The translations under genes and the position numbers were made by a program. The notes below the pieces were generated by a model that was not told the origin of the DNA, did not search any database, and saw only the letters and a list, made by a program, of their open reading frames with translations. From Pleurocapsa sp. MO_226.B13 (GTDB lineage: Bacteria > Cyanobacteriota > Cyanobacteriia > Cyanobacteriales > Xenococcaceae), in NCBI GenBank assembly GCA_030064795.1, contig JASJEI010000235.1, forward strand, positions 1-17,452: DNA of 17,452 nucleotides, written 5' to 3'. Shown piece after piece: positions 993-17,064 of the stretch (positions within the stretch are counted from its first letter, which is position 1; the number at the start of each line of letters is the position of its first letter).

Positions 993-3900
993 ATGAATAT
1001 AATAGATGGCTATCAGATTACTACCAAAATATATGAAAGTGCTAATTCATTAGTCTATAAGGCTATCCGTCTTGAAGATGATCGACCTATTATCCTCAAG
1101 ATTCTTAAAGAAGACTATCCGACAGCTTCAGAACTCACTCGATATAAGCAGGAATATGAAATTACCCGCTCCCTGAATCTGGATGGCGTTGTCAAAGCCT
1201 ATGACTTGCAGAGGTATCAAAACAGTCTGATTATGTTTTTGGAGGATTTTGGGGGAGAATCCTTAAAGATATGGATAGCACAAAACAATTTCACCCTAGA
1301 GGAATTTCTCATCCTTGCAATAGAGATAAGTAAAAATTTGGGTGATATTCACGCTGTCAATATCATACACAAAGACATTAACCCATCTAATATTGTCTAT
1401 AACAAAGAAACTGGAAAGCTTAAAATTATTGACTTTGGCATCGCCACAATTCTGCCAAGGGAAAATCCGACAATTCTCAACCCCGATCACTTAGAGGGAA
1501 CCTTAGCTTATATTTCGCCGGAGCAAACTGGCAGAATGAACCGAGTGATAGATTACCGAACTGATTTTTATTCAGTTGGGGTTACTTTCTATGAAATGCT
1601 CGTCGGAAGATTACCTTTTGAAACCACTGACCCGATAGAGTTGGTACACTGTCATATTGCCAAACAACCTGTGCCACCATATCTTGTAGAAGAGGGAGAG
1701 GAAGGGACAATAAACAATATTCCCAAGGCTGTTTCGGATATTGTGATAAAACTGATGGCAAAAACAGCAGAGGATAGGTATCAAAGTGCCTGGGGACTCA
1801 AAGCAGATCTAGAAAATTGTTTGCATCAGCTACAAAGCAAAGGGACAATTAGGCAATTTCCAGTTGGTCAAAGAGATATTTCTGGTCGGTTTCAAATTCC
1901 TCAAAAACTTTATGGTCGAGAGAAGGAAGTACAACAACTTTTAGATACCTTTGAGCGAGCTAGTCAAGGTTCAACTGAAATGATCCTTGTCGCTGGTTAT
2001 TCTGGAATCGGTAAGTCAGCTTTGGTCAATGAAATTCATAAGCCGATTGTAAGACAAAGGGGAAAATTTATTTCTGGTAAGTTTGAGCAATTTAAGCGTA
2101 ATATTCCCTATGCTTCCATAATTCAAGCTTTTCAAGAACTAATGGCACAGTTACTGACAGAAGATGAAGCGCAAATTCAAATCTGGCGAGAGAAACTATT
2201 AGAAGCTCTGGGTAGTAACGCTCAGGTAATCGTCGATGTGATTCCTGAATTAGAATTGATTATAGACAAACAGCCCCCAGTTCCCCATTTAGGGCTGAGT
2301 GAATCCCAAAATCGCTTTAACATTGTATTTCAAAACTTTATTAGGGTTTTTACCACCCCAGAACATCCTTTAGTACTCTTCCTAGACGATCTGCAATGGG
2401 CGGATGCAGCTTCTTTAAAGTTGCTCGAGTTATTAATGACCGATAGAGACAGTCGATACTTATTGACGATCGGGGCATATCGAGATAACGAAGTTAGTCC
2501 CACCCATCCTTTGATGCAGACCCTGGAACAGATCCAAAAGCTTGGTACTAGGGTAAAAACCATTGTCCTGGGAGCTTTGGGTATCGGTCACATCAACCAA
2601 TTAATTGCTGAGACTCTTCACTGTTCAACGGAAGCATCCCAACCTCTAGCAGAGCTAGTCCTCTATAAAACCGAGGGGAATCCCTTCTTCTTAACTCAGT
2701 TACTGCAAACTCTATACAAAAAAAAACTGTTGCTATTTAACGCTAATACAGGGTCCTGGCAGTGGGAAATTGAGCAAATTCAAACGGCAGGGATAACTGA
2801 TAATGTCGTGGAATTAATGATTGGTAAGATTGAAAAACTAGATGAAAGTACCCAGAATATCTTAAAGTTAGCTGCCTGCATTGGGAACAGATTCGATCTA
2901 GAAGTCCTATCTATTGTCAATGCTAAATCTGCATCAGCTACAGCGAGGGAGCTTTGGCCAGCTCTTCAACAAGGTTTGATTATCCCTCTGAGAGATAACT
3001 ACAAAATTCCTTTGCTTTGGAATCAGGAGGAAATATTTTCCTCTTCCATACCCTACCTATTTTTGCATGACCGAGTTCAGCAAGCAGCCTATACTCTGAT
3101 TCCAGAAGCCCAAAAAAAAGAGGTTCATCTGAAAGTTGGTCAATTACTACTCAAAAATACTCAGCAAGAACAATTAGAAGAAAATATTTTTGATATTGTC
3201 AATCAACTCAATTTTGGATTTGAATTATTTTCCTCTCAATCGGAACGAGATAATCTAGCTCAATTAAATCTAATTGCTGGCAGAAAAGCCAAGAATGCAA
3301 CAGCCTACGAACCTGCTCTCAAATATTTAGAGGTAGGGCTAGAGCTTTTATCATCCGATAGCTGGGAGTATCAGTATGAATTGACACTGAATCTCTATTT
3401 AGAAACAGTAGAGGTGCAATACATCAACACCCAGTTTGAGCAAGCTGAAGCCCTTTCTGCTGTGGTTCTAGAAAAAGCTGAAGAACTCATCGATCGAATT
3501 AGGATTTATGAACTAAAAATTCAATCTCATATAGCTCAATTTCAATTTCATTCAGCTATAGATGTTGCACTCCAGATTCTGAAAAAACTAAGAATAGATC
3601 TGCCCCGAAAACCGAGCCAACACAGGATCAAAGAAGAACATAAATCTCTACAATTGCTCTTAAAAGATAAGCCCATTGAAAATTTATTCGATCTGCCAGA
3701 CATGACAGATCCCTATAAACTATCAGCTATCAGGATCTTACTAGCTGTCACTGCACCAGCGTTTATTACTAATGCTTCTTTATATTCTCTGATAACCTTA
3801 ACGGCAGTCAATCTCTGCATTACCTATGGAAATCCACCGCAAGCTGCTGGCGTATATATCTTTTACGGCAAACTGCTGTGTGGAATTATGAAGGATATTG

Positions 3901-6707
3901 ATTCTGGATATCGGTTTGGTCAACTATCACTAAGGTTGTTAGAAAAATTTAATATTCAGAACTCTAAATCCCTAGTTTTACATTACAGTGCTGGATTTAT
4001 CCGACCCTGGAAAGAGTCAATCCGCCATAGTAATATCCTAGAAACCTTGCAGACAGCACTTAATGTTGGACTCGATATCGGAGATATCGAACATACTTCT
4101 TATAACGCTTCAGCCTATTGTTTGTTTTCCCTATTTTCGGGCTTACCTCTTGAAGAAATAAATCAGAAGTATGAAAAATATATAAATTTGACAATTAAGA
4201 TTAAACAATCTTACACAATTAGCTACATGAAAAACTGTAGTAAAATTGTAATTAGTTTGCTCAATGGATATAAAAATAACTACTGTTTAGTTATCGGTGA
4301 TTCTCAACAAGAAGAAGAGCGGATTCTAGCTCGATGGACTCAGGAGCAAGCTGAATGGTTGCTGTTTAGTGCTTATTTAGCCAAAACCATTTCCTACTAC
4401 TTTTTCAAACACTACGAGGAAGCGATAAGGAGTGCAATTGAAGCAGACAAGAACGCTGAAAGTTCTGCCGCTTATCTGGTTACTGCACAGCACAATTTTT
4501 ACTATTCTCTTGCCCTTTTAGGGAATTGTAATCCTTCTGAACTCGATAGACACAAAAACACTCTACAACAAGTATCATTCAATCAAAAAACTATGAAAAT
4601 GTGGGCTAACCATTGCTCCGAAAATTTTCAACATAAATATGATTTAGTAGAAGCAGAGAAAGCACGAGTTTTAGGACATAATTGGCAAGCAGGAGAACTT
4701 TACGAAAAAGCTATTCAAGGTGCAAAAAAATATGAATTTATCCATGAAGAAGCCTTAGCTTATGAACGAGCAGCAGAATTTTATCTAGCACAAACTAGAG
4801 AAGAAATCGGTCAACTTTATCTAAGAAATGCCCATCATTGTTACAGTCTTTGGGGAGCAAAAGCTAAAGTCAAACAGTTAGAACAAGAATATCCCCAGTA
4901 TTTATTAGAAGTAACTAATCAAAGAAAATCTAAAAAACTTAGTATAACCATTTCTAGCACGGGAAATGATGGAGAAAGTCTTGACTTAGCCACTATTATC
5001 AAAGCATCTCAAGCAATTTCTGGTGAAATCAAGCTGGAACAACTCCTGCAAAATTTAATGAAAATTGCGATCGAAAATGCAGGAGCGCAAACAGGGTTTC
5101 TGATTTTAGATCGAGAAGGTAATTGGGTTATCGAAGCTCAAGGAACAGTAGATAGCGATCGCGTTAATATTTTACAATTAATTCCTATAGAATCTATAGA
5201 GCCTGAAAAGTCGATCCCTCTCTTACCTACTACGATTATCAATTATGTAGCCCGCACTCAAGAATATCTGGTTTTAAATGATGCAGTCAGTGAAGGACAA
5301 TTTATTAATGACCCTTATATTATTGCCAACAAAAGTAAATCAATTCTCTGTACTCCTTTACTTAATCAAGGTCAATTAAGAGGAATTGTTTATTTAGAAA
5401 ATAATTTAACCACAGGTGCGTTTACCTCAGAACGAGTCGAACTTTTAAATATACTATCTGCTCAAGCTGCTATCTCTATTGATAATTCAAGGCTTTATCA
5501 AACCTTAGAACAAAGAGTAGAAGAACGTACTAAAGAACTATCACAAACCCTGGAAGTTCTCAAAGCAACTCAAGCAGAACTAATCTTTGAAAACGATCTG
5601 CTCAGAAGTACCGATCGCCCTTCGACCTATAATTATCAAGTGGGGGGAAGCTTGTCGATGGATTCCCCAACCTATGTGGTACGCTCTGCGGACAGAAATC
5701 TCTATAAAGCATTAAAACAAGGAGAGTTTTGTTATATCTTAAATGCCCGACAGATGGGTAAGTCTAGCCTCATGGTACGGATGATGCACCATCTGAGCCA
5801 CGAGGGATTTAGCTGCGGGGCGATCGACATGACTCGTATTGGCAGCGAAAACGTCACCCCCGAGCAATGGTATAAGGGATTGACAGTAGAGCTATGGCGA
5901 AGTTTTGGCTTGCTAAGGGCAGTTAATCTAAAAACTTGGTGGAAAGAGCGAGGAGATATTTCTCCAGTTCAGAGGTTGAGTCAATTTATTGAAGAAGTTT
6001 TGCTATTTAAAGTTGGTCAAAAAGATGACGCTTTCCCCAAAAACCTGGTGATTTTTATCGATGAAATTGATAGCATCTTAGGCTTGAATTTCCCAGTTAA
6101 TGACTTTTTTGCTCTGATTCGCTCCTGCTATAATCAGCGCAGTATCAATCGAGAATATAGACGTTTAACCTTTGCTTTTTTTGGAGTCGCTACCCCTAAC
6201 GATTTAATTACCGACCATCAAACAACCCCCTTCAACATCGGTCAATCAATTCAACTGGAGGGCTTTAAAGAGCATGAAGCCCAACCTTTAGTTCAAGGAT
6301 TGACCGAGAAAGTGAGCAATCCTCAAACAGTGCTCAAAGAAATTTTAGCTTGGACGAGTGGTCAGCCTTTTTTGACCCAAAAGCTCTGTCAACTCATTCG
6401 TAGTGCTTCATCTCCTATCCCTACCAACAGAGAAGCCGAATGGATTGAAAATTTGGTGCGAACTCGTATTATAGAGAATTGGGAATCACAGGATGAACCA
6501 GAGCATTTGAGAACCATCCGCGATCGCCTTTTTAAGAGCAAAAAATCCGTTCGGCTACTAGAACTCTACCAACAAATTTTGCATCAAGGAGAGATTGTGG
6601 CAGTTGATAGTTCAGAGGAAAGAGAATTGCTTTTGTCGGGGCTAATAGTCAAGCAACAGGGAACTTTGAGAGTCCAAAACCGTATTTATAAATCGATCTT
6701 TGTTTGA
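993..6707 (+). CDS. Giant Ser/Thr protein kinase with AAA_16-type ATPase, GAF and C-terminal AAA-like (AAA_35) domain
   Basis: 1904 residues. The N-terminal kinase domain (about 7-280) has a degenerate glycine loop, the ATP lysine K36 (ILKILK), catalytic H126-K127-D128 with N133 (HKD, not HRD), D147-F148-G149 and the S175-P176-E177 anchor. An AAA_16/STAND-like ATPase follows, with Walker A GYSGIGKS at 335-342 and a Walker B ending LFLDDLQWAD. A long helical, TPR-like region (about 620-1310) leads to a GAF sensor domain (about 1330-1500) and a coiled-coil linker (VEERTKELSQTLE). This part follows the cyanobacterial HstK-type layout of Ser/Thr kinase, ATPase and GAF. That layout normally ends in a histidine kinase, but no H-box or HATPase motifs are present. 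Instead the end is an AAA-like domain with P-loop N1584-ARQMGKSS and Walker B IDEID at 1689-1693. Probably a cytosolic signalling protein; ligand and targets unknown. No clear Shine-Dalgarno sequence precedes the ATG. Confidence 0.9.
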   Translation: MNIIDGYQITTKIYESANSLVYKAIRLEDDRPIILKILKEDYPTASELTRYKQEYEITRSLNLDGVVKAYDLQRYQNSLIMFLEDFGGESLKIWIAQNNFTLEEFLILAIEISKNLGDIHAVNIIHKDINPSNIVYNKETGKLKIIDFGIATILPRENPTILNPDHLEGTLAYISPEQTGRMNRVIDYRTDFYSVGVTFYEMLVGRLPFETTDPIELVHCHIAKQPVPPYLVEEGEEGTINNIPKAVSDIVIKLMAKTAEDRYQSAWGLKADLENCLHQLQSKGTIRQFPVGQRDISGRFQIPQKLYGREKEVQQLLDTFERASQGSTEMILVAGYSGIGKSALVNEIHKPIVRQRGKFISGKFEQFKRNIPYASIIQAFQELMAQLLTEDEAQIQIWREKLLEALGSNAQVIVDVIPELELIIDKQPPVPHLGLSESQNRFNIVFQNFIRVFTTPEHPLVLFLDDLQWADAASLKLLELLMTDRDSRYLLTIGAYRDNEVSPTHPLMQTLEQIQKLGTRVKTIVLGALGIGHINQLIAETLHCSTEASQPLAELVLYKTEGNPFFLTQLLQTLYKKKLLLFNANTGSWQWEIEQIQTAGITDNVVELMIGKIEKLDESTQNILKLAACIGNRFDLEVLSIVNAKSASATARELWPALQQGLIIPLRDNYKIPLLWNQEEIFSSSIPYLFLHDRVQQAAYTLIPEAQKKEVHLKVGQLLLKNTQQEQLEENIFDIVNQLNFGFELFSSQSERDNLAQLNLIAGRKAKNATAYEPALKYLEVGLELLSSDSWEYQYELTLNLYLETVEVQYINTQFEQAEALSAVVLEKAEELIDRIRIYELKIQSHIAQFQFHSAIDVALQILKKLRIDLPRKPSQHRIKEEHKSLQLLLKDKPIENLFDLPDMTDPYKLSAIRILLAVTAPAFITNASLYSLITLTAVNLCITYGNPPQAAGVYIFYGKLLCGIMKDIDSGYRFGQLSLRLLEKFNIQNSKSLVLHYSAGFIRPWKESIRHSNILETLQTALNVGLDIGDIEHTSYNASAYCLFSLFSGLPLEEINQKYEKYINLTIKIKQSYTISYMKNCSKIVISLLNGYKNNYCLVIGDSQQEEERILARWTQEQAEWLLFSAYLAKTISYYFFKHYEEAIRSAIEADKNAESSAAYLVTAQHNFYYSLALLGNCNPSELDRHKNTLQQVSFNQKTMKMWANHCSENFQHKYDLVEAEKARVLGHNWQAGELYEKAIQGAKKYEFIHEEALAYERAAEFYLAQTREEIGQLYLRNAHHCYSLWGAKAKVKQLEQEYPQYLLEVTNQRKSKKLSITISSTGNDGESLDLATIIKASQAISGEIKLEQLLQNLMKIAIENAGAQTGFLILDREGNWVIEAQGTVDSDRVNILQLIPIESIEPEKSIPLLPTTIINYVARTQEYLVLNDAVSEGQFINDPYIIANKSKSILCTPLLNQGQLRGIVYLENNLTTGAFTSERVELLNILSAQAAISIDNSRLYQTLEQRVEERTKELSQTLEVLKATQAELIFENDLLRSTDRPSTYNYQVGGSLSMDSPTYVVRSADRNLYKALKQGEFCYILNARQMGKSSLMVRMMHHLSHEGFSCGAIDMTRIGSENVTPEQWYKGLTVELWRSFGLLRAVNLKTWWKERGDISPVQRLSQFIEEVLLFKVGQKDDAFPKNLVIFIDEIDSILGLNFPVNDFFALIRSCYNQRSINREYRRLTFAFFGVATPNDLITDHQTTPFNIGQSIQLEGFKEHEAQPLVQGLTEKVSNPQTVLKEILAWTSGQPFLTQKLCQLIRSASSPIPTNREAEWIENLVRTRIIENWESQDEPEHLRTIRDRLFKSKKSVRLLELYQQILHQGEIVAVDSSEERELLLSGLIVKQQGTLRVQNRIYKSIFV

Positions 6708-10186: not shown

Positions 10187-10239
10187 CGGAGAGAGAGGGA
10201 TTCGAACCCTCTTTACTTCCTTCTTTTACAGATTACCAA
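10187..10239 (-). pseudogene. 3' fragment of a tRNA-Ser gene (probable integration scar)
   Basis: Read on the minus strand, this ends in a perfect T arm (GAGGG, TTCGAAT loop, CCCTC), the acceptor 3' strand TCTCTCC and discriminator G (complement of 10187), the combination expected for tRNA-Ser. The half-arm TCTGT at 10228-10232 and loop TTGGTAA (10233-10239) resemble the tRNA-Ser(GCU) anticodon arm, with G for C in the anticodon. The variable region shows no good stem. No partner strand (TCTCTCC on the + strand), D arm or 5' anticodon strand lies within the next 100 bp, so the tRNA is incomplete. Such 3' tRNA ends are typical att sites left by integrating elements. Confidence 0.65.
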
Positions 10240-10434: not shown

Positions 10435-10659
10435 CCGTAGATTGAATGCCCGATAACGATAAGCAATCAACGGCTGACGCTTAGCGAAGATTTTGGCTCT
10501 TAATTGTGAAGTTGGAGAAGGCGATCGCTATTCCTGAAAATCTCTATTTAGTGGAATCGGTTAACGTTTCAGCTGCGCTTACCTTCGCTAAACGATTCCG
10601 GTTTATTTTTGGATGCGATGAGCATCACAGGAACAGGTCTGGACTCTTGCTTCGCACGC

Positions 10660-10812
10660 TCAGTGAATTCCCATCCACCAACTCTGGCAGCAAAGAGTGC
10701 TCGCGGCGACGCATACAACACGAAAACCGATAAAGTAGTTGCCGAAAGCGCGCGAATTGTTGAAGCGGTACGCTGAACGGCAGTTACGAGGATAGTAGAA
10801 CCAAGAACCACC
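10660..10812 (-). pseudogene. Orphan copy of the FGE-domain C-terminus: second DGR-type variable region
   Basis: On the minus strand this encodes GGSWFYYPRNCRSAYRF followed by NNSRAFGNYFIGFRVVCVAA, then a short unrelated tail before TGA. It is homologous to the last ~40 codons of the intact FGE gene 282 bp away. Homology starts almost exactly at the GGS codons; just upstream (10813 onward) the frame hits a stop and no FGE sequence precedes it. The two copies are nearly identical at fixed codons but differ at first and second positions of the variable codons, as for two products of one diversifying retroelement. It cannot be expressed as a full protein and is either the remnant of a second target gene or a displaced cassette. 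Confidence 0.8.
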
Positions 10813-10840
10813 GCTTTTTTAATGCCTGTCCCATCTTTTA

Positions 10841-10864
10841 CAGTAAACAGTCAACAGTTAACAG
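10841..10864. repeat. Three heptamers CAGTNAA plus CAG
   Basis: CAGTAAA, CAGTCAA and CAGTTAA lie in tandem, followed by CAG. Short heptamer repeats are common in cyanobacterial intergenic DNA; no function is claimed. They lie between the orphan variable region and the end of the FGE gene. Confidence 0.6.
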
Positions 10865-10940
10865 CGATCGATACTTATTATTTCTTAGCACTTTGTATTA
10901 CGATTGATACTAATATATAGTATAAAAATTTTTTTGGCGC

Positions 10941-10972
10941 AAAGGGCAAAAGGGCAAAAAGAGCAAAAGGGC
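10941..10972. repeat. Tandem (A)nGGGC / (A)nGAGC repeats
   Basis: Four units of 7-9 bp (AAAGGGC, AAAAGGGC, AAAAAGAGC, AAAAGGGC) end at the stop codon of the FGE gene. Low-complexity A-rich repeats of this kind are frequent in cyanobacterial intergenic regions. They sit immediately downstream of the variable region in the sense of its transcription. Confidence 0.6.
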
Positions 10973-12723
10973 TATGTAGTCTTCGCGGCGACGCACACAA
11001 CACGAAAACCGAGATTGATGAAGCGGTTACCGCGCGAATAGATGAAGCGATACGCAGAACGGCAGCTAATAGGATCGTCGAACCAAGAACCACCGCGTGT
11101 TACTTTGTTATTACCACTCCCTGAAACCCTTGCACTACCATCAGTTGGCGCATCTTGATAGTTGTCATGCCAATCATCTTGACACCATTCCCAAAGATTT
11201 CCATGCATATCGTATAAACCAAAGGCATTGGGCGGAAAACTGCCGACTGGTGTAGTTTGTTCTCGATATTCTCCTGGTGCTTCATCAGCAAAAGTTTCAC
11301 TCGCAAGATAGTTAGCTAATTCCCCAGTAATCGTTTCTCCAAAATGAAAGGGAGTGCTGGTTCCTGCACGAGCTGCATATTCCCATTCTGCTTCCGATGG
11401 CAGTCGATATTCATATCCTCCTGCTATCAAACTTGACAATCGCTTACAAAATTCCACTGCTTCCTCCCAGAAAATAGTTTCTACAGGAAGATCATCTCCT
11501 TGGAATCTAGAGGGATTGGGGCTAAGATCCCGTTCAATTTTTGGGAGAGCAGCGATCGCTCTCCACTGCGCTTGAGTCACTAAAAACTTACTCATAAAGA
11601 AGGGTTGAACAGTTACTTCATGTTGCGGTTTTTCTACTCTAAAATATTCCACACCAAATTTTTGAACTAGCCTTTCTATTCCCGCATCTTCTGTTCCCAT
11701 TAAAAACTTACCTCCAGGAATAGCGACCATTTCCAGGTTTACGCCATTTCCCAAGTCTTGAGTAAAAAACTCAGATTTTTGTGAATCTCTGCGAATAATT
11801 TCTCCGCGAGCATTAACCGTTAGCACCTCAAAGTTATCAGTAGTTCGGGGGATTTGCTCTGGATCGAGAAGTAAAACTGGTTTAGATATCCAACGTTCAG
11901 CTAATTGGGGCAAGAATAAAGCTGCCATAAATCCGCCTCCTGCCAAAGCAGTATAACCTGCTATTTGTAAAAACCTCCGTCGAGTCCAACGTCGAGGGGT
12001 TTGAATCGGTTGCGGAATCAATAAGCTAGTTCCAGCTATTTCGATCGCCTTTCCTTGTTTCGATACTTCCTTCAATTGACTAGTAGCAGTGACAATATCC
12101 CCACGGGCAAAATTTCCCAGACTTCGGGCATAGGTAAACAGGGGGGAAAATTCTGCTAGCGGTTCGGTCAAATTTTCCACCAAAGATTCCAGCCGCACCA
12201 ATTCCGTTCCCGAGTTCAGGGAGACTTGATAAAATGCTGCTAGTTGACGCACTGCTGCTGTGGGTTCGAGATAAGCTAATGCTGTCCATAATTGAGCGAG
12301 GGCAAAATCGCGCTCGTCGGGGTCATCGCTTGCTAGCAGAGGTTCCACATAAGCGAGTAAGAACTGAGCTAGTTCAGTGATTCTCTGTTGCCCGAAATTC
12401 CGCTCTTCCTGGAGCCGCTGAAGCAGGACATTGCGTACCACTCGCTCCATTTGATAAATTTCATATCCGACTTCAGACAATAGTTCGGAAAACAAGAGAT
12501 CGGCTACAGCTATCCAAGGAATATCCAGCGGTTGCTCATTGATATCGCCCTGAAAATTAGCCCAAAGACAATATAGTAAATCGGGGGTAACTGCCAAAGG
12601 AAAAGCAGCGTGACAGGCGAACCAGAGATGAGGATTGCCAAAACGTTGGCTAAAAGATTCAATTCGGCGATGAGCCTCTTGGAGTTCACCTTGTTGTAGG
12701 GAGCTCAAATTCCTCTTGTCCAT
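10972..12723 (-). CDS. FGE-sulfatase/C-type-lectin-fold protein with membrane segment: probable DGR target
   Basis: 583 residues. A helical N-terminal domain of unknown function (about 1-235, containing HLWFACHAAFPLAVTPDLLY) precedes a Tat-like motif T247-RRRFLQ-253 and a hydrophobic segment at about 255-275. An FGE-sulfatase domain follows (about 325-580), recognisable by EMVAIPGGKFLMG, RLPSEAEWEYAARAG, GLYDMHGNLWEWC and the end GFRVVC. Arginines before the membrane segment suggest N-inside, C-outside topology, so the FGE fold would face the periplasm. The first active-site cysteine of true formylglycine-generating enzymes appears replaced by D549, which is a variable position, so a ligand-binding role is more likely than enzyme activity. 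Last gene of the five-gene operon; it begins 6 bp after the VWA gene, with AAAGGTGA supplied by the end of that gene. Confidence 0.92.
   Translation of the reverse strand: MDKRNLSSLQQGELQEAHRRIESFSQRFGNPHLWFACHAAFPLAVTPDLLYCLWANFQGDINEQPLDIPWIAVADLLFSELLSEVGYEIYQMERVVRNVLLQRLQEERNFGQQRITELAQFLLAYVEPLLASDDPDERDFALAQLWTALAYLEPTAAVRQLAAFYQVSLNSGTELVRLESLVENLTEPLAEFSPLFTYARSLGNFARGDIVTATSQLKEVSKQGKAIEIAGTSLLIPQPIQTPRRWTRRRFLQIAGYTALAGGGFMAALFLPQLAERWISKPVLLLDPEQIPRTTDNFEVLTVNARGEIIRRDSQKSEFFTQDLGNGVNLEMVAIPGGKFLMGTEDAGIERLVQKFGVEYFRVEKPQHEVTVQPFFMSKFLVTQAQWRAIAALPKIERDLSPNPSRFQGDDLPVETIFWEEAVEFCKRLSSLIAGGYEYRLPSEAEWEYAARAGTSTPFHFGETITGELANYLASETFADEAPGEYREQTTPVGSFPPNAFGLYDMHGNLWEWCQDDWHDNYQDAPTDGSARVSGSGNNKVTRGGSWFDDPISCRSAYRFIYSRGNRFINLGFRVVCVAAKTT
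10984..11094 (-). repeat. DGR-type variable region at the 3' end of the FGE gene
   Basis: Codons 544-580 of the FGE gene. The framework GGSW, P551, C554, R555-S556-A557, R559, S563-R564 and GFRVVCVAA is shared with the orphan copy, while most positions between change. In the variable codons the third base is always C or T, as expected when AAC/AAT codons in a template are mutated at adenines. The shared 3' block (GGTTTTCGTGTTGT onward) occupies the position where the mutagenic-homing initiation site of a DGR is expected. The template repeat and reverse transcriptase are not in the window. Confidence 0.8.
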
Positions 12724-12729
12724 TACCCA

Positions 12730-14124
12730 TCACCTTTTGAGATATCCTCGTAAAACATTAATCGTTTCCTGAAACCCTTGACTACTTACTTCAAACATTG
12801 GCACTAAACGGGCAATTTCCCCTGCACTTGTCCCCTGCCAACGATCGTAAGGCATGGGATTGAGCCAAGCGAGATAGTTTACTTGCTGCCGAAGCTGCTC
12901 TAGGAAATCAGCGGTCAAATTAATCCTCTTGGGGTTAAGTCCACCCCGTAAAGCACCAGCATCGCTAAAAATCAGGGCTACTGTCCAATGAGCATCCAGT
13001 TTGGGGAGAATCTGGCTAATTAATTCCGCTTGTTGATGATAAGGGTCGTGATAGAGATATTCTAAGGGACAATTCTGAAAATAGTAGATACTTGTCTTCC
13101 CTAGTTTTCCTGCTTGTTGAACGGTTGCTACTAAAAGATCGGCAAGTCGATGAAAGGGCAGCATCGAGCCATCATAATCTATTAATAATAATAGTTGAGT
13201 TCGATTGATGCGAGGAGGAACCAATACTGGTTTAAGTAAAAATCCTTGACGACTGATTTGGTTAACGGTTGCCTTGATATCTAACTCGGTTGCTTTCCCA
13301 GAACGTTCTAGTCGGCGTAAATAACGCCAGCTTTGTTTCATCTGCCTAGGAGTAATGGGAAAATATTCATGGTTCATCAAAAAGCGATCGCTTTTGACTA
13401 ACTGAGCAATTTCGATTTTATTTATCTCCTGGGTTAGTTGCTCGGGAAACGAAGTATTGGCTTGATTTTGAGATACGGTCGAGATTTGCCGCTTATAACC
13501 AGAGAGACGTTTTGCTATCTTTTGACTAGCCCATCTAACAGCAATCACACCAATAACCATAGTAAAGGCGATCGTTAATAGTCCCCCCCAAAATAATGGT
13601 TGCGAAATTGTTGAGGTGATATTAGGAATTGCAATAACAGTTGGATTTTCTAATTGTGGTTCTGTTGGCGGTTCTTGTGTTGCTTCCGTGGGATTTTCTG
13701 GAGGGTTTTCCCTTGAAGTTTCTGGGTTTTCCTTAATCAAAGAGTCGGAATATATTATTACCATACTCAGTAATAAAACTCCCCCCAAAACCAGATTTCG
13801 TAGAGTTCTATTGGTCTGGCGTTTAGCTAAATTAGTTGCCGATTCTGGTAAATCTTCATCGATAGAAACATTAGAGCTACTAGTCAGAGGTAAAGAATCA
13901 GGCTTGCCGATCACCTGTTCAAAATGATAGTCAAAGATCCGCTTATCTTGAGGAGATTTGACCCAAAGGGTGCAGCATAAACGCGCCAATGCTGAGCGAT
14001 CTGGAAAGCCAAACCCCCCTCTGATTGCTTGTAATAGCAATTTATATTCCCCTATACCCAATGGTAAGCCAGCTTTTTGTAATCGGGTAAACAACTCCAA
14101 CAGCGGCAAATCTTCAATATCCAT
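12730..14124 (-). CDS. Two-pass membrane protein with VWA/CoxE-like domain
   Basis: 464 residues. The N-terminal ~75 residues form a small helical domain (LFTRLQKAGLPLGIGEYKLL) like those preceding VWA domains in SAV_2336-type proteins. Two transmembrane segments (about 110-127 and 176-196) flank a Pro/Glu/Thr-rich loop, probably extracytoplasmic. The C-terminal part (about 305-464) is a VWA-like domain with LLLLIDYDGSM at 311-321: D316-x-D318-G-S320 replaces the usual DxSxS metal-site motif. Later elements are FSDAGALRGG and the CoxE-like YLAWLNPMPYDRWQGTSA. VWA proteins of this kind pair with MoxR ATPases, and the moxR gene directly upstream overlaps by 11 bp. Role inferred: membrane-anchored partner of the ATPase. 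Confidence 0.85.
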   Translation of the reverse strand: MDIEDLPLLELFTRLQKAGLPLGIGEYKLLLQAIRGGFGFPDRSALARLCCTLWVKSPQDKRIFDYHFEQVIGKPDSLPLTSSSNVSIDEDLPESATNLAKRQTNRTLRNLVLGGVLLLSMVIIYSDSLIKENPETSRENPPENPTEATQEPPTEPQLENPTVIAIPNITSTISQPLFWGGLLTIAFTMVIGVIAVRWASQKIAKRLSGYKRQISTVSQNQANTSFPEQLTQEINKIEIAQLVKSDRFLMNHEYFPITPRQMKQSWRYLRRLERSGKATELDIKATVNQISRQGFLLKPVLVPPRINRTQLLLLIDYDGSMLPFHRLADLLVATVQQAGKLGKTSIYYFQNCPLEYLYHDPYHQQAELISQILPKLDAHWTVALIFSDAGALRGGLNPKRINLTADFLEQLRQQVNYLAWLNPMPYDRWQGTSAGEIARLVPMFEVSSQGFQETINVLRGYLKR

Positions 14125-15034
14125 TTTTCAAGTAACGTTGATGATCCTGCCAACGTTTTAACAGCACCCCCGCATAGGGCAACTTTCCTCGTAATTTTGC
14201 CAGTACTTCGTCTTCTGGTTCGCGGCGCAACACCTGAAACCAATCAATCAATTCACTGGTACTGACCATCTTCCCCGCATGAGTTTTATCCTTCTGCATT
14301 TGGTCTCGTAACTCTAAAAAACGTTTTACCGCCTGATTAACTAATAGTTCTGGTGGATTGTCGAAATGGGCATTGATAATTTCTATTAAACGCTCATCAC
14401 TGGGGAAATTGATATAGTGAAATAAGCAGCGACGCAAGAAGGCATCGGGTAAATCCTTCTCATCATTGCTAGTAATCAGGACAATTGGCGCTACCTCGGC
14501 TCGAACTATTTCTCCTGTTTCTTCTACTTTAAACCATCGCCGATCGAGCTCCATCAACAGATCGTTAGGAAAATCAAGATCTGCTTTGTCAATTTCATCA
14601 ATTAGCACCACTGTTTGCTTTTCATTGCGAAAAGCATTGCCCAACTGTCCCCATCGGACGTAGGTAGCAGGATCGCTAATCCGCTTAATTTCCTCCTGTT
14701 CAAGGATGTTATTGGCAGCCAGTTGAGCATCCCGCAAACGAGCCACCGCATCGTAGGAATAAAGACCTTCTCGCGCTACAGAGGTGGATTTGACACACCA
14801 TATTTCTAAGGGCAACTTCAACTCGTGAGCTACCGCACGAGCCAACTCGGTTTTCCCAGATCCTGGCTCCCCTTTGATTAAAAGTGGTCGCTGTAAGTAT
14901 ATCGCGATGTTTACCGCCTCCACTAACTCGGTACTTGGTAAATAAGGCAATAACAATTGCCCCATTTCATCCCGTTCTCCTAGTTGGGGCTGCACAGTAC
15001 CTGTATATTGGGGTAAATTATTTAGAGTTTCCAC
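14114..15034 (-). CDS. MoxR-type AAA+ ATPase
   Basis: Counted from the GTG at 15034 the protein has 306 residues. Walker A is GEPGSGKT (55-62) and Walker B VVLIDEID (142-149), followed by DLDFPNDLLMELDRR. Sensor-1 lies in IVLITSNDEKDLP and the arginine pair in FLRRC near 201-202. The frame is open further upstream to a TTG at 15070, but that start would overlap the previous gene by 49 bp and add a basic, unconserved-looking stretch; the GTG (VETLNNLPQYTG) overlaps it by 13 bp and fits the family's start better. MoxR proteins act as ATP-driven chaperones or activators together with a VWA partner, which is the next gene here. Acts in the cytosol, probably as a hexamer. Confidence 0.9.
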   Translation of the reverse strand: METLNNLPQYTGTVQPQLGERDEMGQLLLPYLPSTELVEAVNIAIYLQRPLLIKGEPGSGKTELARAVAHELKLPLEIWCVKSTSVAREGLYSYDAVARLRDAQLAANNILEQEEIKRISDPATYVRWGQLGNAFRNEKQTVVLIDEIDKADLDFPNDLLMELDRRWFKVEETGEIVRAEVAPIVLITSNDEKDLPDAFLRRCLFHYINFPSDERLIEIINAHFDNPPELLVNQAVKRFLELRDQMQKDKTHAGKMVSTSELIDWFQVLRREPEDEVLAKLRGKLPYAGVLLKRWQDHQRYLKNGY

Positions 15035-16014
15035 AGTCGTTCTACTTCGTCGTAGTAGTTGTAACCACAACGCTCAAAAATACCTTGTAACACATCTTCG
15101 GGAATCCCGTCATCACTCTGGGAGAGGATAGAACTAACGGTATCATCAACGTTATGGGTTAGTTCGTAGGGCAATTCGTTAAACTCGTGTAACATCCAAT
15201 CAGTTACATTTTCTTCTGTGAATTTACTAATATTTGGCGATCGCACAGGCGCATCAGCCTGGTTACTATTAACTCGATCTACAAAAAGGCGATCTAAATT
15301 GCCCACCGAGCCATCGTAGTCGATAAAAAATATCAACAACTTATACTTGCTCGCACGCAAACCAGCTTGTCGAACTTTCTGAGCTAGAGGCTGCCAAAAT
15401 TCTTTAATCAATTGTTCTAAATAGTCTTGGGGGATAAAATTGACATCGTGGAAAACTAAGAGAACATTCTCCGTTTGCCATAATCGATAAACCCCTTCAG
15501 CAATTTCTAAGGGTGAAGGTGGCGGGTATCGTTTCCCTAAAACCTTATTCCCCAGTTCTCGCCATAATGTCTGGACATCGATTCTTCGCACCGTGCGAGA
15601 TAACTCAATCCTGATTTTCTTGTAGTTTGTGTTGTGGGGAACATACTGCTCAACTAAGCGATTCAACAACCATCGCTGTCCATATCTGAGAGAGCCATGA
15701 ATCAAAAAAGCGGCTACTGACTGGGCTTGGATCAATCTGAGAAATAATCGTACTTGTCTCTCATAACCTAATTTCAAGAGCATACGATAGAGTTGCTCAC
15801 TATTAGAAGTTTTATCTAACTCTTTTAACTCTTGGTTAATTCTCTCCCGTTCTTGTTGGGCTTCCTTAATCTGCTGTTGTAGCTGCCAAATTTCTTTGGG
15901 ACGCAGGTTGCTCGTTCTCTCGGCTTGACTTAAATACTCAATCTCATTACTCAGAGCATTATATTTCTGTTGTAGTTCACTATAGCGACGTTTGAGATGT
16001 TCATCAAGGAGCAT
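15022..16014 (-). CDS. Adaptor: helical effector-associated-type domain plus inactive STAND-like NTPase
   Basis: 330 residues. Residues 1-68 are a charged helical, coiled-coil-like module homologous without gaps to the C-terminus of the neighbouring caspase. From about 75 a STAND-like domain follows, in which the P-loop place reads IHGSLRYGQRWLLNRL: G112-Q113-R114 stands where GKS/T is needed, so ATP binding is not expected. A Walker B-like strand VLLVFHDVN (about 184-192) is also altered, while overall order and hydrophobic strands (KLLIFFIDYDG) are kept. This fits the inactive STAND (iSTAND) type known from predicted bacterial conflict systems. Starts 6 bp after the caspase stop. Inferred role: adaptor that gathers the caspase through module-module contact and links it to the MoxR/VWA pair. 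Confidence 0.75.
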   Translation of the reverse strand: MLLDEHLKRRYSELQQKYNALSNEIEYLSQAERTSNLRPKEIWQLQQQIKEAQQERERINQELKELDKTSNSEQLYRMLLKLGYERQVRLFLRLIQAQSVAAFLIHGSLRYGQRWLLNRLVEQYVPHNTNYKKIRIELSRTVRRIDVQTLWRELGNKVLGKRYPPPSPLEIAEGVYRLWQTENVLLVFHDVNFIPQDYLEQLIKEFWQPLAQKVRQAGLRASKYKLLIFFIDYDGSVGNLDRLFVDRVNSNQADAPVRSPNISKFTEENVTDWMLHEFNELPYELTHNVDDTVSSILSQSDDGIPEDVLQGIFERCGYNYYDEVERLWKL

Positions 16015-16020
16015 TAGAAG

Positions 16021-17064
16021 TTACAAATTTAGTTGCTGTTCTAATTCTTCCATCTTTTGAGCAGCTCGATCTCTTTTTTTCTTAGCCTGGGTAATTTGTT
16101 GTATCAGTTTGAAATGCTCCTGGGGAGGAAGATTGTCTATTTTTTCTGCATTGCTTAAAAATTCTATTTCCTGATTTCTATAATCATATTCTTGTTGCTG
16201 TTCCTTAAGTTCCTGTTCTAGATGACGGCGTTGTATAGAGGTCAATGGGGATTTCACTAACCCCAGTTCTGGTAGTGAATTAATAACAACAGCTTTCCGA
16301 ATATCCCCCCGATAATCAGCTAAGATTATATCCCCCAATCCCTCAGTACGAGCAGTTGGTTCTTGTATTCCTCCATGCTTGACATTCCAACGCCGCAAAG
16401 CATCTAGCACATGATTCTTAAGATCATCGACAGTAACCATTTTTTTACCATTTCTGTCCGCCTTTCCACTTAATCCTTCCAACAAATAATAGGTAAAGAC
16501 ACCATGTTGGACTTGTTGCCATTCAAGTGCTGTTTGTTCGGCTGTACTCGCCGCAATTAAAGCAAAACCTTCTGCCAAATCATAAACATTCTTAATAAAC
16601 TCAGGGTCGGTTAAATCCCTACCAATATCTACACCACTATGACAAGCATCTAGAGTTAGTACTAATTTACGTCCTCCGCTATCTCTCATATGTCGTTCCA
16701 CTTCCGCAACAGATAGCGCTCGTTGGTTTAATAAGGTGCGTTGGGTATCCTGAGTAATTAAAACAGGTTCTTTTTTATTGCCTTCTCTTTCCACCCTGGT
16801 TCCATGACAAGCAAAATGTACCCATAGTAGGTCATCAGGTTGAACCGCCTGACAAAGTTCAATTAATCTGGCTTCCACATTGTCACGAGTAGGAAACAAG
16901 CGATTATCCCTATCTAACTCATCGTGGAGACAAACCACTTCATAGCCTAACTGAGTAAGGATTTGCTCTAGCGCTAACACATCGTTAACACAAAACTTTA
17001 AGGTTCCAAAGTTAGGGTCAGTATAGTGATTAACTCCAACTAAGAACGCCCAGCGATTAGTCAT
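16021..17064 (-). CDS. Caspase-like peptidase (family C14) with C-terminal adaptor-binding module
   Basis: 347 residues. The caspase fold (about 1-250) starts with WAFLVGVNHYTDP and the substrate-pocket region KFCVNDVLALEQIL. The catalytic histidine is H87 in FACHGT and the catalytic cysteine C141 in LTLDACHSG. Both are intact, so the enzyme should be active. A linker (about 250-275) leads to a charged helical module at 276-347 that is homologous to the first 68 residues of the next gene product. Bacterial caspase homologues often act as regulated suicide proteases in immunity or cell death. First gene of the operon, with AAGGTG just before its ATG. No signal peptide, so it acts in the cytosol. 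Confidence 0.92.
   Translation of the reverse strand: MTNRWAFLVGVNHYTDPNFGTLKFCVNDVLALEQILTQLGYEVVCLHDELDRDNRLFPTRDNVEARLIELCQAVQPDDLLWVHFACHGTRVEREGNKKEPVLITQDTQRTLLNQRALSVAEVERHMRDSGGRKLVLTLDACHSGVDIGRDLTDPEFIKNVYDLAEGFALIAASTAEQTALEWQQVQHGVFTYYLLEGLSGKADRNGKKMVTVDDLKNHVLDALRRWNVKHGGIQEPTARTEGLGDIILADYRGDIRKAVVINSLPELGLVKSPLTSIQRRHLEQELKEQQQEYDYRNQEIEFLSNAEKIDNLPPQEHFKLIQQITQAKKKRDRAAQKMEELEQQLNL

Follow-up and report, generated by a model that had tools for sequence, protein, structure and literature searches.

The locus and its two repeats

The window analysed here is the whole 17,452-nt contig JASJEI010000235.1 of Pleurocapsa sp. MO_226.B13. A gene cluster on its minus strand codes for a caspase-like (Peptidase_C14) protein (16021..17064), an iSTAND protein (15022..16014), a MoxR-type AAA ATPase (14114..15070) and a VWA_CoxE domain protein (12730..14124), which lies 6 bases upstream of an FGE/CLec target gene on the same strand (10972..12723). 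The target is a protein of 583 residues with the PF03781 domain at residues 331-576, and a variable repeat (VR) is found at the 3' end of the gene, where the domain reaches residue 576 of the 583. The clustering of AAA/MoxR, VWA_CoxE, iSTAND and caspase C14 with an FGE sensor is that of a MoxR-vWA ternary conflict system. When PADLOC was run on the window, only the caspase model and weak AAA matches were returned. The cluster resembles the neighbourhood given for the targets of cyanobacterial diversity-generating retroelements (DGRs) in the available excerpts of Dore et al. 2024 (PMC10907252). On the plus strand, beyond a radA-like gene, positions 993-6707 encode a protein of 1904 residues in which kinase, AAA_16, GAF and AAA_35 domains are found. 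A T-arm-like stretch, AGGGTTCGAATCCCTC, at about 10190-10215 of the minus strand suggests a tRNA remnant, and ARAGORN called no tRNA near 10200.

The initial annotation had described two copies of an FGE-gene 3' end with the substitution pattern of a DGR. Both were found where it had placed them, each beginning with GGTGGTTCTTGG, at 11094 and at 10812 of the minus strand. Copy 1 (10984..11094, minus strand) is the VR, 37 repeat codons at the 3' end of the FGE gene, and copy 2 (10702..10812, minus strand) is a segment of a template repeat (TR) in which half of the template adenines have been replaced. Codons 1-4 are the same in both copies and codons 29-37 are one silent base apart (GTG/GTA). 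The shared repeat ends are short, measuring 15 nt and, with one mismatch, about 28 nt. In codons 5-28, which form the adenine-templated core of copy 1 (11011-11082) and the rewritten core of copy 2 (10729-10800), both on the minus strand, there are 20 differences, 18 of them at codon positions 1 or 2. An adenine is present in 13 of these 18 pairs, and the third base of the variable codons is C or T throughout.

The initial annotation had considered all 18 differences explainable by an adenine in a common template. The templates of relatives bear this out for 17 of them; the exception is position 1 of codon 24, which is C in one copy, G in the other and C in the template. The third base of codon 13 also falls on a template adenine, which brings the total to 18 of 20, and the second exception is position 3 of codon 15 (C/T). 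As 28 of the 72 core sites are adenines, the binomial probability of such a concentration is 3e-6.

Copy 2 lies in the position of a template

The reading of the two copies as two FGE-gene 3' ends was correct for copy 1 and failed for copy 2. The third codon upstream of copy 2 is a stop codon, which shows that no FGE gene ends in copy 2. It is directly preceded by the stretch GGGACAGGCATTAAAAAAGC (10813..10832, minus strand), which resembles the GGGRYAGGC leader of intact TRs and probably is the start region of the template RNA. The window leader at 10832 is almost identical to the leader in a Xenococcus genome, and the form GGGRYAGGC, with one mismatch allowed, was found before 106 of 126 A-rich templates. 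In Xenococcus MO_188.B8 (G001:C120), a single alignment with an 81% DNA match spans leader, repeat and tail (query 247-541). With the template leader upstream, the template tail downstream and the stop codon in front, copy 2 occupies the place of the template.

The content of the repeat is not that of an A-rich template. With the threshold for an A-rich template set at 6 AAY codons, the 126 A-rich templates have 6-14 of them, whereas the TR position of the window has 4 in 24 codons. We define here the class of RT-less DGR satellites, consisting of a target and a template-RNA gene; in the window, leader, repeat and structured tail adjoin the VR gene and the 17.4 kb contig shows no reverse transcriptase (RT). 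Neither an RT nor an Avd was seen in it by tblastn (best E 0.017, over 37 residues), and the covariance model R1 of the tail found no second template in the contig. DGR-type RT matches were obtained in 6 of the 12 related or tail-bearing genomes searched, with full length in G001, G002 and G003. The phage records searched gave no match, nor did a pattern scan of IMG/VR. A second Xenococcus locus, G001:C124, was rejected as an ortholog: its tail is 89% identical, but the FGE domain is only 50% identical and the template is truncated. It is a similar arrangement only, with a truncated template remnant.

The flanks also bear on the possibility that copy 2 is an assembly chimera, in which reads of a VR ended up at the template locus when the metagenome was assembled. 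In favour of this, the length of the contig is just 17452 bases, the repeat ends are common to VR and TR, and a mixed population may contain numerous VR variants. The common ends, however, are short, the TR-specific sequence continues on both sides, and similar templates were found in other assemblies, which are also drafts (G004:C393 and, in part, G004:C593 and G697:C128). We regard a chimera as very unlikely.

A conserved RNA structure follows the template

Downstream of the TR, at 10553..10698 of the minus strand, lies a conserved structured RNA that was recognised by model R1 with 125.7 bits. In an alignment of 46 sequences the fold has 35 predicted pairs, 22 of which have changes on both sides. 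Pairing was observed in 96.8% of the cells, compared to 85.7% in shuffled alignments and at most 44.2% when the partners were slid, and 0 of 500 shuffles reached any of five measures; the structure was derived from those same 46 mutually related sequences, the window included, and both controls therefore lean in favour of the fold. The window tail keeps the fold with few non-standard pairs. A comparison with Rfam gave no family at gathering score, and a chance match to RybB was below the cut-off and on the other strand.

When plasmids were searched at the DNA level, the stretch after copy 2 matched intergenic DNA of Microcystis and Picosynechococcus plasmids. In the Microcystis plasmid the tail stretch follows a clean A-rich template that adjoins an RT coding stretch. 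The complete plasmid loci have the order FGE, avd, RT, template and tail, with avd annotated in 2 of 3. A pattern scan of 84,980 genomes yielded 62 tail stretches, 57 of them in records with cyanobacterial titles, and an A-rich repeat stood directly before the tail in 53 of the 62. A covarying RNA of about 146 nt is found after most of the cyanobacterial DGR templates collected here.

Several tails deserve separate mention. Three are in records titled Gammaproteobacteria, Parabeggiatoa and Thiomargarita (L034, L052 and L055). L034 and L052 have their RT downstream of the template and on the other strand, and L055 has it upstream as in cyanobacteria; an exchange of elements between phyla is possible. 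On two Picosynechococcus plasmids (L002 and L010) a decayed template lies between unrelated genes with no annotated RT nearby, and the tail RNA is well kept, with 116 and 112.8 bits. In two further genomes (L053 and L071) the tail RNA carries an almost identical insert in its variable loop, which looks like the arrival of a small mobile repeat at a site that tolerates it.

Both copies were changed at template adenines

Four related genomes supplied five loci with intact templates, from which a consensus template was built. Compared to this consensus, copy 2 was changed at 14 of 28 adenines and at 4 of 44 other sites (p=1.4e-4), and with the five single templates p ranged from 1.4e-4 to 3.5e-3. 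One of the four non-adenine changes is position 1 of codon 24 (C to G). Copy 1 was changed at 16 of 28 adenines and at 4 of 44 other sites. For a control, each of the five intact TRs was compared to the other four, and only 1-2 A sites were changed (p >= 0.78). The adenine-templated mutagenesis of a DGR, proposed in the initial annotation, is well supported by these counts in both copies and by the A-rich third copy that exists in relatives. The FGE protein itself points to activity of the VR: the two closest relatives among the matches listed (6 aligned of 120 listed proteins) are 86% and 84% identical to the window and differ from it at 10 and 11 of 13 A-codons, compared to 33 and 31 of the 228 other residues of the FGE domain.

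This pattern is hardly compatible with a plain duplication of the gene end followed by random decay, without a DGR. In favour of it, no RT was seen in the contig, but the changes are concentrated on template adenines, non-standard pairs are few in the fold that the tail RNA has retained, and an A-rich template stands in the template position at 126 of 178 tail-bearing places. We give this explanation next to no credence.

We then considered the relation of the two copies. Copy 2 in its present form was rejected as the template of copy 1, as its adenines account for only 8 of the 20 differences. With 16 adenines changed in copy 1 and 14 in copy 2, an overlap of 8.0 is expected, and 8 were observed. 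The two window copies changed as if independently, and there is no sign that copy 2 was copied from copy 1. The initial annotation had cautioned that residues shared by the copies might point to a common history after mutagenesis. This caveat is weakened, since codon 15 is TAC or TAT in 5 of 5 related templates and since the same letter was found at 4 of the 8 adenines changed in both copies, near the 57% predicted from the T-rich spectrum of both.

Copy 2 might instead have been overwritten through ordinary homologous gene conversion, with a VR at another genomic site as the donor and without entry of cDNA. VR and TR have both repeat ends in common, remote CLec targets are described as common in cyanobacteria in the available part of PMC7517822, and the pattern to be expected from conversion by another VR is identical to that from the entry of cDNA. 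The common ends are short, however, and copy 1 is an unlikely donor, because the two copies changed as if independently. Gene conversion is the less likely route for copy 2, though a reasonable minority view.

Templates that look rewritten are rare among tail-bearing loci

The occurrence of the arrangement was followed with model R1. The tail was detected in 37 of the 386 genomes sampled across the phylum and in 112 of the 388 sampled in the order of G001. All 67 places of the phylum sample were taken. The family of G001 had 14 places in 7 of 27 genomes, 8 of them new and all taken, and from its order 76 new places of at least 91 bits were taken among the matches listed. In the order of G004, 27 of 63 genomes had the tail, at 44 places, of which the two of G004 and 24 others of at least 104 bits were taken. 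The samples overlap, and altogether 178 places were examined: 175 from the scans (122 genomes), the two of G004 and the window.

An A-rich repeat was in the template position at 126 of the 178 places, and 87 of these had an RT of at least 100 aa upstream. No repeat was recognised by the pattern at 29 places; by eye, about 14 of these have a template, a VR or a remnant, including an intact template in G010 (L253). Another 19 places have their repeat inside a long open frame, 16 of these repeats being VR-like and 3 A-rich. FGE frames with a VR that leads directly into the template tail were seen in L009, L035, L072 and at places such as G001:C140 and G106:C28, and all of these are possibly VR-template recombination products from which avd and RT were lost.

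The 16 VR-like repeats could be taken to mean that copy 2 is likewise a second VR, which lost its gene body and was joined to the template tail by a deletion of avd and RT; a further such repeat, L009, is on an Aulosira plasmid. The frames of these repeats, however, are open over 182 to 925 codons upstream (236 in L009), whereas in the window a stop codon stands three codons before copy 2 and the repeat is preceded by the template leader. A second VR is therefore highly improbable.

Only 4 of the 178 places have a low-A repeat in the template position: G155, where the template is shortened, G678, where it has an insertion, the window and G004:C393. The latter two are the clear cases of a template rewritten throughout; the 175 scan places alone gave only the shortened template and the one with the insertion. 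Two more templates, G004:C593 and G697:C128, look partly rewritten and are counted among the 126, with 7 and 6 AAY codons. Similarity to the window led to G004:C393 and G001:C124, and pattern or model scans led to G004:C593 (L068) and G697:C128.

Templates and their neighbouring VRs

Template and VR were then compared pairwise. In 71 pairs with a linked RT there were 1023 differences, and the adenine was on the TR side in 995, on the VR side in 3 and on neither side in 25. In 32 pairs without an RT upstream the corresponding numbers were 378, 21 and 44. In the window pair, 8 differences have the adenine in copy 2, 6 have it in copy 1 and 6 in neither copy, a distribution that deviates from the RT-linked pairs with p=5e-14 and from the RT-less pairs with p=6e-7, the hand-picked G004 loci and the window having been removed from the references. 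For the other templates that look wholly or partly rewritten the counts were 5/2/5 (G004:C393), 9/1/3 (G004:C593) and 11/0/2 (G697:C128, with two non-A differences); the last might be a rewritten template that has stayed in use. Repeats in frames open for more than 150 codons, bodies shorter than 80 nt and pairs below 74% identity were left out, as was L318 (1/1/14), which was taken as paired with another template.

Any VR-side adenine was observed in 3 of the 71 RT-linked pairs and in 9 of the 32 pairs without an RT upstream (p=0.0012); when the window and G004 were omitted, the counts were 2 of 70 and 7 of 30 (p=0.003). Templates seem to lose adenines mainly where no RT is seen upstream, unless some VRs were written from another template, by which VR-side adenines could arise. 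RT-less means here that the 3-4.5 kb fetched contained no RT of at least 100 aa on the upstream side, and for some places the contig stops early.

The RT-less templates fit their own neighbours. At every non-A site, 13 of 31 RT-less A-rich templates match the neighbouring VR. In 15 of 15 RT-less templates whose genome gave another fetched template, the own template fits the VR better; one of the 15, L213, has a downstream RT, which was not counted in the RT-less call. The mismatches to the own and the other template were 0 and 20 in G085, 0 and 25 or 31 in G314, 0 and 14 in G384, 0 and 17 in G183 and, in the worst case, 12 and 17 or 25 in G135, in an ungapped comparison that inflates mismatches for templates of unequal length. 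This fit supports an RT that acts in trans on separate template RNAs. According to the census, templates with no RT close upstream seem to be common and to fit their own neighbour.

Interpretation of the locus

Taken together, the locus is probably an RT-less satellite of a cyanobacterial DGR whose own template has been rewritten, most likely by mutagenised cDNA. A ternary-type conflict gene cluster carries an FGE/CLec sensor with the VR and is followed by its own template-RNA gene with leader, TR and structured tail, and the RT and Avd would be supplied in trans or have been lost. In the host lineage an A-rich template would have been used by the RT to diversify the FGE sensor. Mutagenised cDNA, from the own or a sister template, would then have entered the template DNA instead of the VR. 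The template segment would have been replaced in this step, by cDNA or by a VR through gene conversion, with the leader and the tail left in place. Copy 2 has the corresponding features: half of the template adenines are replaced, most third bases are retained and the sequence on either side remains of the template type. With half of its adenines gone, the template offers fewer variable codons and may have lost diversifying power.

The locus most likely works like, and descends from, a DGR of the cyanobacterial RT clade 5E, a clade assigned here from published work and from the RTs of related loci. In the excerpts available of Vallota-Eastman 2020 (PMC7517822) and Dore 2024 (PMC10907252), these DGRs have in common with the window the CLec/FGE target, the C-terminal VR, the adenine-templated codons and the MoxR/vWA/peptidase neighbourhood. 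In the related plasmid loci the order is avd, RT and TR, whereas the window lacks RT, Avd and an A-rich TR. Unlike in clade 5E DGRs, the TR of the window itself has substitutions at adenine sites. With no RT seen in the contig and an A-rich template missing, the locus does not qualify as a complete DGR.

RT-less or degenerate DGR loci have been described, as far as the accessible sections go, for Thiohalocapsa (DGR 4, 5 and 7; Dore 2024, PMC10907252) and in DiGReF, with distal targets beside a mutated RT (Schillinger 2012, PMC3521204). Like the window, they are target loci without an RT that may be served in trans. In contrast to what is described there, the window has kept its own template-RNA gene, and this template is rewritten.

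In the Bordetella phage BPP-1, a structured RNA directly 3' of the TR recruits RT-Avd and primes the cDNA, according to the parts available of PMC12875486 and PMC8867640, and the window likewise has a structured RNA directly 3' of its TR. The cyanobacterial tail has its own covarying fold (46 sequences) and is likened to the BPP-1 spacer by position. A Bordetella phage study reportedly found that the TR can become variable when VR and TR exchange their 3' element.

The template DNA of DGRs is described as unchanged in the portions consulted of PMC3240598 and PMC10907252, and an unchanged template makes endless rounds of diversification possible. The rewriting of a template appears to run against this standard picture. 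The kind of DGR is known; a rewritten template and template-specific RT-less cassettes were not met in the available parts of the open-licence literature, which is no claim that they are absent from print. A template rewritten at its own adenines would be a natural failure mode, or an off-switch, of the DGR design. Such templates can now be searched for by two flanking markers, the leader and the tail, and the tail RNA is a handle for locating template genes whether or not they are linked to an RT. It is conceivable, though we propose it only tentatively, that in cyanobacterial DGRs one RT works with a set of separate template-RNA genes, that each of these is dedicated to a target of its own, and that the templates are themselves open to adenine mutagenesis. 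If so, a rewritten template would change or retire the codons that are able to vary, and a lineage could lock one sensor while its RT keeps diversifying others.
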